A stretch of 64,000 nt of DNA from Dietzia sp. ANT_WB102 (lineage in GTDB: Bacteria; Actinomycetota; Actinomycetes; Mycobacteriales; Mycobacteriaceae): NCBI RefSeq assembly GCF_008369165.1, contig NZ_VOBA01000001.1, positions 868,001 to 932,000 on the forward strand. Reading direction: 5' to 3'. The translations under genes were made by a program, and so were the position numbers. Positions 26,304-28,929 of this stretch are shown here, one piece after another (positions within the stretch are counted from its first letter, which is position 1; the number at the start of each line of letters is the position of its first letter). The notes beneath the pieces were generated by a model. That model saw only the letters and a program-made list of their open reading frames with translations, was not told the origin of the DNA and ran no database searches.

Positions 26304-26930
26304 TCAGTCGCGCGACTCGCGGCCGTCGCCCAGCTCGCGGATCCGCTCGGTCGCCGCACGTAGCCGCTCCTCTCGAGCTTTCTGGTCGGCCTTCTTGAGC
26401 GTCTCGTAGGTTTGCTCGTCGGAATCGGTGTAGCGCAGTACCAGCCGCGGGATCCCCAGTGTCAGCGCCAGCGACGGCCACACGATCCACGCGTACTGCC
26501 AGTCCACGATGAGCTGCAGCACGAGAAATGTGATGAGTGTCAGCCCGAGAACCACGCCGTCCAGTGACTCGACGAGCTTTCCGCGCTTGCGCAGGTCCTC
26601 GAGATCGGCATCGGTGCCGCGGGCGGCTGGCGTCACCGCTCCGGTGGGGGACGAGGGCGACGTCGGTGACGACGACGAGACGTCCAGCTGCGCACCGGGG
26701 TTCGTTGCCGACTGCACGATCATGCCGTCGACCGAGGTCAGTGGTGTCCCGCCGGGCAGGTCGGCGAACGCTCCGCGCAGCTGGCCGAGCGTGCGGGCCG
26801 CGGCCACGTCGCCGGAGCGGGCGTGGAATTCGGAGTCGTCGAGTCGACCGAACGCGTAATGGTCACCGAGTGCCATGAGGGCGTGTAGCCGCTCGGCGTC
26901 GGAAAGCAGTAGGTCGTCCGGCTCGGTCAT
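26304..26930 (-). CDS. DUF1707 (SHOCT-like) membrane protein
   Basis: 208 aa. The first 55 residues (LLSDAERLHALMALGDHYAF then GRLDDSEFHARSG) are a DUF1707 domain, common in actinobacteria and of unknown role. A Ser/Thr/Pro linker follows, then two transmembrane helices (about residues 120-160) and a charged C-terminal coil rich in Lys, Glu and Arg. Start at 26930. Confidence 0.82.
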   Translation of the reverse strand: MTEPDDLLLSDAERLHALMALGDHYAFGRLDDSEFHARSGDVAAARTLGQLRGAFADLPGGTPLTSVDGMIVQSATNPGAQLDVSSSSPTSPSSPTGAVTPAARGTDADLEDLRKRGKLVESLDGVVLGLTLITFLVLQLIVDWQYAWIVWPSLALTLGIPRLVLRYTDSDEQTYETLKKADQKAREERLRAATERIRELGDGRESRD

Positions 26931-27009
26931 GGGCCCAACGTTAGGGCCGCCCGGCCCCTGACGCTAGAGCAGCCGCGTCGATCCACTATCGACCGCCCGT
27001 GCTCGTGCC

Positions 27010-27100
27010 GTGCCCGCCGGCTGCCCGTGCCCGTGCCCTTGCCCGCCGCCCGCCGCCCGCCGCCCGTGCCCTTGCCTGCCGCCCGCCGCCCGCGCCTGCC
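27010..27100. repeat. CCCGCCG / CCCGTGCCCTTG imperfect tandem repeats
   Basis: Strongly C-skewed block: CCCGTGCCCTTGCC occurs twice, each followed by runs of the 7-nt unit GCCCGCC. This is low-complexity slippage-prone DNA with no coding sense on either strand. Confidence 0.75.
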
Positions 27101-27101
27101 G

Positions 27102-27171
27102 GCGTGGAGTCACTCCGTCAGCTGTGCCAGAGAGATCTCCTGCGAAAACGCTGCACGCAGTGACTCCACGC
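27102..27171. repeat. Palindromic element B (13-bp arms, 44-nt loop)
   Basis: GCGTGGAGTCACT (27102-27114) pairs perfectly with 27159-27171 across 44 nt. The loop has its own stem (GAGA/TCTC and CAGC/GCTG). Core arm to core arm is 66 nt, exactly as in element A (5211-5276). Written in the orientation that matches (A on the minus strand), both carry a GA[GA]AACG block at positions 41-47 of the 66. It lies between divergent genes. Confidence 0.75.
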
Positions 27172-27232
27172 GGTGGGGCTGGCGCGGTGGGGCTGGCGCG
27201 GTGGGGCCGCGATGGGGCCGCGATGGGGCCGA
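27168..27232. repeat. G-rich short tandem repeats
   Basis: GCGCGGTGGGGCTG is repeated about three times and GCGATGGGGCC twice in a row, directly after the right arm of palindromic element B. G-quadruplex formation is conceivable. Confidence 0.65.
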
Positions 27233-27266
27233 CGAGCAGCGACACAGCGATACATGAGGCCTGCGG

Positions 27267-27293
27267 TGTCACATTCGGCAGTGCGCCCGCGTC
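27267..27293 (+). promoter_or_regulatory. ECF41-type promoter of the CMD-sigma operon
   Basis: TGTCACA (27267-27273), 16 nt, then CGTC (27290-27293). These are the -35 and -10 motifs reported for ECF41 sigma-factor targets, which usually precede the gene (CMD type or similar) linked to the sigma factor. The CMD ATG at 27302 follows 8 nt after CGTC, so the mRNA would have almost no leader. The promoter sits in front of the operon that encodes the ECF41-like factor, implying autoregulation. Confidence 0.75.
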
Positions 27294-27301
27294 GGAGTGG
27301 T

Positions 27302-27802
27302 ATGAGCACATCACCGGGCAAGAGCGAACAACGCAAACAGGTCAGCGCAGGGGCGATGGCGCCCATGCTGGCACTTGAGGCTTACTCCCGAGCGCGAGTC
27401 TCCCGGCAGGACAGTCACCTCATCCGGCTCCGGGCGTCCGCGGTGAACGGGTGCCGCTACTGCACCGCGATGCACCGCCGCGATGCACGCAAGGACGGCT
27501 GGAGCGAGACCCGAATCGCGGTCGTGGAGAACTGGCCCGCCCACGTCGAGGAGGTCTCGCCGGCCGAGCGGGCGGTGCTGTCGTTCGCGGATGCCGTCAC
27601 CCACATCGATGGGGAGAAATCCGTACCTGACGAGCTATGGGACGAGGTGGTACGCCACCGGGGAGAAAATGGGGCTGGACAGTTGGTAATGGAGATCGTC
27701 ACGATCAACGCATGGAACCGGATAGCGATCGCCACCCGCAAGGACCCGGCGACGCTACGCGGCCTCATCCCGAGCGACCTCGAACCGGTGAAGCGGCGCT
27801 GA
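27302..27802 (+). CDS. AhpD/CMD-family protein linked to an ECF41 sigma factor
   Basis: 166 aa. AhpD-like core with AVNGCRYCTAMHRRDARK (CxxC and His), SPAERAVLSFADAVTHI and QLVMEIVTINAWNRIAIATR. The family supplies thiol-based reductase or decarboxylase activity. ECF41 genes are characteristically next to such CMD-type genes (family knowledge), and its presumed target promoter precedes this gene. Start at 27302 is close to the expected transcription start; GGAG 5 nt upstream is marginal. The sigma gene begins 8 nt after its stop. Confidence 0.88.
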   Translation: MSTSPGKSEQRKQVSAGAMAPMLALEAYSRARVSRQDSHLIRLRASAVNGCRYCTAMHRRDARKDGWSETRIAVVENWPAHVEEVSPAERAVLSFADAVTHIDGEKSVPDELWDEVVRHRGENGAGQLVMEIVTINAWNRIAIATRKDPATLRGLIPSDLEPVKRR

Positions 27803-27810
27803 CCTGCGGC

Positions 27811-28515
27811 GTGGTGTCCGATCGCGCTGCACTCGACCGGATCCGCGGCTTACTCCTCGGGGTGGGGTACCGCATCACCGGGAGCTGGGCCGACGCCGAG
27901 GACGCCACCGACGAGTCGCTGGCGCGGTGGTTGGCGCTCCATCCCGCGTCCGCCCCCCGCAACCTCGAGGCGTGGCTCACCACCGTCACGACCCGGCTGT
28001 GCCTGGACCGGTTGCGCCAACGCAAGCGGGAGTACGTCGTCGGCGTGTGGCTCCCCGAGCCCGTCGACACCGCTCTGCTGCCGGCGGACCGCGCTGAGCG
28101 GCGCGACGACCTACGGATCGCCATCCTGCTGGCCTACGAGCAACTGAGCACGGACGAGCGGGCGGCGTTCGTCCTGCGCGAGGCGTACGACCTGCCGTAT
28201 GCGGACATCGCCGACGCGCTGGGCGCGGGCGTGGCCACCGTCCGGCAGTGGGTGAGCCGCGCCCGCCATCGACTGACCTCCGACCTCCGCCCGCGCGAAC
28301 CCGCGTCGAACGTTCTGGTCTCCGGGCTGGTGGAGGCGGTCATGGCCGGCGACCTGGATCGGACGATCGTCGCGCTCACCGCAGACCGCCGCGGGGATCT
28401 GCAGACGGTGCAGGTGAGCGTGGCGGACGGCCGCGTCACGCGTCTGTACTTCCGCTCCAACCCGGAGGAGCTCACACAACTGGCTCTGCCCGAGGGGTTC
28501 CGCCCGTCCGCGTGA
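27811..28515 (+). CDS. ECF41-type sigma factor with shortened SnoaL-like domain
   Basis: 234 aa. Sigma-2: GVGYRITGSWADAEDATDES and RLCLDRLRQRKREYVVGVWL. The WLPEP linker motif of ECF41 is present. Sigma-4: LSTDERAAFVLREAYDLPYA then DIADALGAGVATVRQWVSRA. ECF41 proteins usually carry a SnoaL-like C-terminal domain (total about 290-310 aa) that regulates activity. Here it is only about 65 residues: it keeps the first helix (LVEAVMAGDLD) and the last strand (VADGRVTRLYFRSNPEEL) but lacks the middle, including the DGGGK region. GTG at 27811 or 27814 is the start; no strong ribosome binding site, so coupled to the CMD gene. No anti-sigma gene is adjacent, as expected. Confidence 0.88.
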   Translation: MVSDRAALDRIRGLLLGVGYRITGSWADAEDATDESLARWLALHPASAPRNLEAWLTTVTTRLCLDRLRQRKREYVVGVWLPEPVDTALLPADRAERRDDLRIAILLAYEQLSTDERAAFVLREAYDLPYADIADALGAGVATVRQWVSRARHRLTSDLRPREPASNVLVSGLVEAVMAGDLDRTIVALTADRRGDLQTVQVSVADGRVTRLYFRSNPEELTQLALPEGFRPSA

Positions 28516-28581
28516 GGGGCGGGTCTAGTCTCTCGGCGTTTTCCGTAGCGAGGCGTCGGCGGGCAGCCGTGACGGGTCGGG

Positions 28582-28929
28582 TCAGGCCGGCACCCACATG
28601 GCCATCTCGTTTCCGCCGGGCTCGCGGAAGTGGAACCGGCGGCCGCCGGGGAAATCGAACGGCCCGAACGTCACCTCGCCGCCCGCGGACTCGACCTGGG
28701 CGCGGGCCTCGTCGAGATCGGGCACCCGGATGACCATGAGCGGTGCGGGAGACTGCTCGTCGTCGTCCCCCTGCACGCCCGCGTCGATGCCGCCGCCGAC
28801 CAGGGTGGCGTACGACTTCCCGTACACGGTGGGCTTCCAGCCACAGACTTTCGAGAGAAACTCGGCTGTCGCGGGCATCGAGGTGCTGGGGTATTCGATC
28901 GAGGTGATCTCGAGAGGCGTTCGGCGCAT
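28582..28929 (-). CDS. VOC-family (glyoxalase-like) protein
   Basis: 115 aa, one vicinal-oxygen-chelate domain pair: EITSIEYPSTSMPATAEFLS then KVCGWKPTVYGKSYATLVGG, and the second half VIRVPDLDEARAQVESAG with FHFREPGGNEMAMW. The metal-ligand Glu of the second half (GGNEM) is present. Reaction not assignable. Start at 28929; no clear ribosome binding site. Confidence 0.82.
   Translation of the reverse strand: MRRTPLEITSIEYPSTSMPATAEFLSKVCGWKPTVYGKSYATLVGGGIDAGVQGDDDEQSPAPLMVIRVPDLDEARAQVESAGGEVTFGPFDFPGGRRFHFREPGGNEMAMWVPA

Follow-up and report, generated by a model that had tools for sequence, protein, structure and literature searches.

An ECF41-Derived Sigma Factor of Dietzia sp. ANT_WB102 With an Internally Shortened Regulatory Extension and Altered Contact Motifs

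A sigma factor gene of Dietzia sp. ANT_WB102 encodes an ECF41-derived protein that has lost the middle of its C-terminal regulatory extension by a 159-bp in-frame internal deletion and that is altered in the two motifs between which the inhibitory contact was reported, the latter change having been overlooked in the first-pass annotation of this DNA. The gene is located in a stretch of 64,000 nucleotides, hereafter called the window (NZ_VOBA01000001.1, positions 868,001–932,000, forward strand). The deletion, its uniqueness in the sets compared, the conserved core, the promoter, and the two residue changes are features of the sequence itself. The likeliest reading, to which we assign a probability of about 0.48, is that of a natural, unlatched, and signal-independent ECF41 factor that would drive its own CMD operon; its control would be altered and perhaps constitutive.

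According to a report on ECF41 factors (PMC3426412), no condition inducing them was known and their mechanism was open, and laboratory truncations constitute the main evidence there for an inhibitory role of the extension. A natural deletion combined with changes in both proposed contact motifs offers an independent evolutionary test of this inhibition model, and the window factor and its full-length Dietzia relatives form a ready pair for a reporter experiment. The window factor may be either a natural version of the stuck-on laboratory mutant or the product of a gene in early decay.

Gene Organization and Family Assignment

The promoter and the two genes with their parts lie on the plus strand of the window. 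An ECF41-type promoter, TGTCACA-N16-CGTC, is present in its exact letters at 27267–27293 (TGTCACA at 27267–27273, CGTC at 27290–27293). It precedes a gene (27302–27802) for an AhpD-like CMD protein of 166 residues with a Cys-x-x-Cys motif (CRYC), which matches CMD in Pfam (E 2.2e-12) and the AhpD core domain (E 3.6e-11). The next gene (27811–28515) encodes the sigma factor, which comprises 234 residues when read from the GTG at 27811; GTG 27814 and CTG 27799 are alternative starts. Pfam recognized sigma region 2 at residues 10–73 (27838–28029; PF04542, E 2.8e-12) and sigma region 4 at residues 104–155 (28120–28275; PF08281, E 7.1e-14). The linker motif reads VVGVWLPEP (residues 76–84, 28036–28062) with Val76 at the place of the family Tyr; WLPEP, noted before as being kept, is found at residues 80–84.

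This layout resembles that of Ecf41Bli and Ecf41Rsp, which likewise consist of σ2, a WLPEP linker, σ4, and an extension, have a CMD partner, and are associated with TGTCACA-N16-CGTC and with a COE gene preceding the ECF gene (PMC3426412). In the same report, the ECF41 extension is described as having three conserved motifs. Three ECF41 hallmarks are found in the window, i.e., WLPEP in the σ2-σ4 linker, TGTCACA-N16-CGTC before a COE gene or operon, and a partner gene of the CMD/oxidoreductase/epimerase type. Three others are lacking: a complete SnoaL-like C-terminal extension (77 residues here), the DGGGK-type motif of the extension (deleted here), and the Lys of NPDKL together with the Tyr of the linker motif (NPEEL and Val76 here). 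In ECF41 factors, the extension has a dual role in vivo, activating as well as restraining the factor. Since the extension is incomplete and the protein has descended from full-length orthologues, it is classed as an ECF41-derived variant.

The best NCBIfam models for the protein were SigJ-type and stayed below their cut-offs, as they did for two full-length genus orthologues. Against NF007214 (SigJ; curated cut-off 271), the window protein scored 179.1 bits and these orthologues 237.4 and 229.1, so that the shortfall says nothing against ECF41. Pfam SnoaL gave no match in the window protein or in the two full-length orthologues, and the label SnoaL-like is therefore based on homology to SigJ and on the ECF41 papers.

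Sigma orthologues (E below 1e-50) were found in 16 of the 23 genus genomes, the window's own included, and CMD orthologues (E below 1e-40) in 15, all among these 16; in the sixteenth, G008, the contig starts inside the sigma gene. Neither orthologue was found at these thresholds in the other seven genomes, four of which are less than 90% complete. The sigma gene is intact, as far as seen, in 14 genomes besides that of the window, and its core is 70–80% identical between the window and the genus orthologues with a full domain. Among 16 other loci, the upstream neighbor is shared in 12 and the downstream neighbor in 10, counted within short flanks. Together with the homology to SigJ, the orthologues and shared neighbors support the ECF41 assignment made in the first-pass annotation. 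The alternative mentioned there, that the protein belongs to another ECF group whose C-terminus is short by nature, is not supported, as the orthologues with shared neighbors are full length. The sigma copy of G005 carries a one-base frameshift near codon 127 (L028, 1850–1900); since that genome is fragmented and 82% complete, the frameshift may be an error, and the copy is either a second decaying one or erroneous. This copy, represented by L028 and L036, was excluded from the sigma alignments. L043 is from Candidatus Dietzia intestinigallinarum, and its sigma protein, CMD protein, and promoter are identical to those of G006, a genome of the same genus as the window. Because L025 duplicates L043, it was not counted. 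With a full-length relative as the query, a search of plasmids returned 66 records.

Promoter, Operon, and Other Possible Targets

The bare promoter motif with a spacer of 15–17 has 7 matches in the 3.28-Mb genome versus 5 for a reversed control. At the locus itself, TGTCACA-N16-CGTC with the spacing CGTC-N8-ATG is found ahead of the CMD gene at 16 of 17 examined loci, the window included; the seventeenth, L014, begins within the sigma gene and lacks upstream DNA. The sequences of L025 and L043 are the same, which leaves 15 distinct loci among the 16. Because the same promoter, spacer, and distance to the ATG recur in this way, the promoter in the window is more than a chance match, and the earlier proposal of a cognate ECF41 promoter just before the CMD gene is supported. 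The promoter is found at the locus in all 15 CMD-bearing genus genomes.

The start codon of the CMD gene lies 8 nucleotides past CGTC in the window and likewise in all 16 loci with upstream DNA, a spacing that suggests that the CMD-sigma mRNA is probably leaderless or nearly so. In contrast, leaders of 31 and 32 bases are given for ydfG and RSP_0606, respectively (PMC3426412). The CMD gene ends with TGA in 16 loci, and the sigma frame is held in one register relative to this stop despite a variable spacer; in all of them, the stop shares its first two bases with an NTG codon, giving NTGA. In the window, this is the CTGA at 27799–27802, in which CTG is a possible sigma start in the register common to the 16 loci with both genes. 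As any base before TGA gives ATG, GTG, TTG, or CTG, the evidence lies in the register and the stop rather than in the codon. In L015, L024, L025/L043, and L026, the stretch from the CMD stop to the conserved Asp contains no ATG, GTG, or TTG, and for this reason the CTG of CTGA may be the start there. Thus, the sigma gene may be initiated at CTG by coupling in several Dietzia species, possibly including that of the window at CTG 27799. In G013, the spacer between the two genes (L018, about 2077–2165) appears by eye to be made of 15-base units in tandem, and GTG recurs in frame once per unit.

Other targets were sought with a stricter promoter form, TGTCAC-N16..18-CGTC-N6..10-ATG. In the window genome, one match was found beyond the locus (C1:700694, TGTCACC) versus 2 control matches, and a second target is thus unsupported. 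In the 23 genus genomes, the form matches 24 times outside the locus, where it has 15 matches, versus 8 for the reversed control, and it is possible that they represent either further ECF41 targets in the genus or conservation of coding sequence. Two off-locus sequences with the promoter pattern recur across genomes, one in G011 and G018 (near-identical in G012) and one, near-identical, in G012 and G016. Backup by a paralogue was also considered and rejected: the genome contains one further SigJ-type sigma gene (C1:102382–103188), which covers the whole NF007214 profile and lacks WLPEP. No ECF41-type promoter was found at this paralogue within the locus segment checked.

An Internal Deletion in the C-Terminal Extension

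In all 14 intact Dietzia orthologues, 53 residues with a DGGGK-type motif stand between the positions of window residues 192 and 193. The alignment that had been proposed with the first-pass annotation thus maps the missing segment, and the window sigma factor has undergone an in-frame internal deletion of 159 bp. The retained first part of the extension (residues 158–192, 28282–28386, delimited by alignment with the orthologues and SigJ) is followed, across the junction at 28386/28387 where the 53 codons are absent, by a C-terminal remnant of the SnoaL-like domain (residues 193–234, 28387–28512) in which NPDKL reads NPEEL (residues 217–221). The motif in the orthologues is DGGGK in three and DSDGK, DSGGK, DSNGK, or DAGGK in 11; in L014, the corresponding segment of 53 residues contains SDGGGK. 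L049, L050, L051, and L064 were excluded from the motif comparison as duplicates. In comparisons at the sequence level with SigJ (PDB 5xe7), a full-length orthologue aligns over residues 5–278 (E 6.9e-44), whereas the window protein aligns over the core, 8–190 (E 6.3e-34). As read off the alignment of the full-length orthologue, the absent segment corresponds approximately to SigJ residues 204–267, which have no counterpart in the window sigma factor. A frameshift or stop as the cause of the shortness is ruled out, since the frame is continuous through the junction.

For the comparison with the wider family, 96 distinct ones of 128 family-level matches were used (32, mostly weaker, were left out), and the genus loci were added. 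With identical proteins merged and without L049, L050, L051, and L064 (duplicates), L031 and L044 (cut short or distant), and L168, L187, and L191 (with an in-frame stop or running off), the alignment comprised 114 sequences, 96 of which, the window included, have the W-PEP motif. After residue 157, the window protein has 77 residues, as compared to 125–157 in the 95 other WLPEP-bearing proteins; its extension is also the shortest of all 114, the next shortest being 112. The first-pass annotation was therefore right about the shortness, whereas its figure of about 65 residues was too low. It was also correct that the middle with the DGGGK region is missing, that the last part of the domain is kept, and that the deletion is internal and in frame, on which the orthologues, shared neighbors, and SigJ homology agree. 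In the literature, no natural internal deletion in an ECF41 factor was found in titles and abstract openings, and reports elsewhere are possible.

In L014, the sequence GCCCGCG recurs at the junction at exactly 159-nucleotide spacing, which is not the case in L015, L016, and L017. Moving the breakpoint by several bases hardly changes the fit, and the extension of the L014 gene has 11 seven-base repeat hits, of 8 distinct runs, at spacings of 30–299. Given this repeat at the matching distance and the short repeats in the extension, a deletion between short repeats is likely, though not proven.

Changes in the Motifs of the Inhibitory Contact

NPDKL ties the SnoaL_2 domain of Ecf41Bli to the linker YVGPWLPEP, which results in a compact, inactive protein (PMC7730460), and an inhibitory contact was described between the C-terminal region of the domain and the linker (PMC9023288). 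Where they deal with this contact, both reports name the motifs rather than a Tyr-Lys pair. In the window sigma factor, both motifs are altered. The linker Tyr, present in 93 of the 95 other WLPEP-bearing proteins, is Val76, and the Lys of NPDKL, present in 94 of the 95 with an Arg in the remaining one, is Glu220.

In the 95-sequence set, the window protein departs from the consensus at three of the 35 columns with at least 90% conservation, i.e., by Y76V, K220E, and P114T, the last of which sits at the start of σ4. In a smaller set of 41 sequences, Y76V and K220E are the only departures among 39 columns that are 90% conserved. As more distant sequences show up to seven departures at conserved columns, the two or three of the window are not unusual in number, but their places are. 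The linker Tyr is likewise absent from L077 and L078, yet both keep a full extension, and L077, with Ala and Arg and hence with the basic residue kept, is the only one of the 95 that departs at both positions. Coupling of the two positions is only hinted at (Fisher p=0.021), the signal coming from L077 alone and disappearing if Arg is counted as Lys (p=1).

Selection on the Sigma Gene

At positions that do not vary among the 14 other orthologues of the genus, the window sigma factor has 11 changes; the next highest number is 4 (L024 and L026), even though the branch of L024 is longer than that of the window. By region, such changes affect 4 of 40 invariant positions in σ2, 1 of 17 in the linker, 0 of 34 in σ4, 2 of 17 in the first part of the extension, and 4 of 12 in the tail, irrespective of whether the residue-193 column is grouped with the first part of the extension or with the tail. 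Changes are thus in excess in the tail (4/12 versus 7/108 elsewhere; Fisher p=0.013).

Branch codon models were fitted to 15 sequences, or 14 for CMD. In the core, ω was 0.114 on the window branch versus 0.049 elsewhere (p=0.018), and ω=1 was rejected (p=7e-6). The tail had an ω of 0.212 versus 0.059 elsewhere (p=0.059), with ω=1 rejected marginally (p=0.048); pairwise NG86 estimates had put the tail on the window branch near neutrality, and preference is given to the codon-model value, in which codon bias is taken into account. The CMD gene was not accelerated (ω 0.064 versus 0.091; p=0.53). Over the window branch as a whole, the sigma gene thus evolved under relaxed constraint, yet not neutrally. 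Because part of this branch predates the deletion, the models are compatible with a recent full loss of constraint. The GC3 of the sigma gene, 0.906, lies within the range of its relatives (0.880–0.944) and gives no sign of decay.

Comparison With Truncated ECF41 Factors

Promoter activity was increased about 20-fold by shortening Ecf41Bli to 204 residues and about 120-fold by shortening Ecf41Rsp to 206 residues, whilst Ecf41Bli of 192 residues was clearly less active than that of 204, and removal of the whole extension (167 and 169 residues, respectively) abolished activity; part of the extension acts positively (PMC3426412). The active truncations are longer by 37 residues than the versions without activity (204-167, 206-169), and the window factor keeps 37 between the Pfam end of σ4 at 155 and residue 192, a resemblance to the hyperactive truncations that concerns lengths only and depends on the chosen σ4 end. 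Moreover, Ecf41Bli 1-204 and Ecf41Rsp 1-206 stop there, whereas the window factor continues into 42 residues of the old C-terminal end. The unmodified Ecf41Bli and Ecf41Rsp have a whole extension of ~100 residues, whereas 53 residues with the DGGGK-type motif are absent from the window factor and NPDKL is altered. For SigJ, deletion of the full domain abolished activity, and in a view reported there the domain is not an antagonist; the compact state may recognize the promoter, and the domain may stabilize promoter binding (PMC7730460).

Possible Functional Consequences

One 159-bp in-frame deletion has removed the core half of the fused SnoaL-like regulatory domain, and both motifs of the inhibitory contact have changed, the YVGPWLPEP-type linker at its Tyr and NPDKL at its Lys. 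In the preferred reading, with neither a complete domain nor the contact, the factor would not be held in the closed state, would bind RNA polymerase without a signal, and would fire the probably leaderless CMD-sigma operon from TGTCACA-N16-CGTC. The retained first part of the extension may supply the stretch that laboratory deletions showed to be necessary for activity. As the sigma gene is itself second in this operon, the operon would be kept on. The full scheme, in which an ECF41 factor ceased to depend on a signal when the core of its sensor/inhibitor domain was deleted and the contact was dissolved on both sides, with a self-sustaining "on" operon as the result, is put forward tentatively, at somewhat less than even odds.

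The preferred reading is supported by the retention of the DNA-reading parts, the promoter, the CMD gene, and the neighbors, with σ4 unchanged at all 34 genus-invariant positions. Constitutive activity is favored by the changes in both contact motifs and by the retained length matching that of the hyperactive truncations (PMC3426412), and it is weakened by the signs of relaxed selection and by the drop in activity seen with the truncation to 192 residues, which is slightly shorter. The P114T change at the start of σ4 also counts against it, and the 42 leftover residues could misfold. Deregulation is further weakened by the possibility that the compact state of SigJ recognizes the promoter (PMC7730460), and if the SigJ domain stabilizes promoter binding, its loss would weaken the factor.

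The main rival is early decay, which we hold to be possible at odds of little better than one in three. The deletion would then have abolished or crippled the factor, leaving a young pseudogene that is open by chance, with the CMD gene being kept under another promoter or just for the moment. The relaxed core ω (p=0.018) fits this course, as do the 11 window-only changes, compared with at most 4 in any other orthologue, the longer-branched L024 included, and the view of SigJ in which the domain aids promoter recognition (PMC7730460). The operon is also dispensable in the genus, as 7 of 23 genomes have neither gene (4 of these 7 being under 90% complete), and G005 has the frameshifted, possibly erroneous copy in its fragmented, 82%-complete genome. 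However, the window gene is free of stops and frameshifts, ω=1 is rejected for the core across the branch as a whole (p=7e-6), σ4 is unchanged at all 34 genus-invariant positions, the promoter is exact, the CMD gene is not relaxed, and two of the three departures at the most conserved columns fall in the two contact motifs. A working factor that was retuned, with the rump of its extension regulating in a new way rather than leaving it constitutively on, would agree with a tail that has stayed open and is on average below neutrality (p=0.048 for the test of ω=1) and with the positive action of part of the extension (PMC3426412). We consider it improbable, as changes at conserved positions are proportionally most frequent in the tail, the near-universal Lys is lost, and about half of the domain is gone. 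An assembly or sequencing artefact, conceivable with a single genome available for the species, is very unlikely: the assembly, of 4 contigs, has a completeness rating of 100%, the deletion preserves the reading frame, and further substitutions are found at the junction and in the tail.

Repeats Upstream of the Operon

An RNA family search at 26900–28700 gave no match at the gathering threshold. Upstream of the promoter, at 26993–27231, GC-rich tandem repeats are found with units of, among others, 33/39, 14, and 11 bases. They flank on both sides a 66-bp element (27104–27169) with perfect 11-bp inverted ends, GTGGAGTCACT-N44-AGTGACTCCAC. Six copies of this REP- or MITE-like element are present in the window genome, alike at their inner ends and variable in the middle, against none for a reversed-pattern control. 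With exact arms, it occurs once in G013 and in none of 21 other genus genomes.
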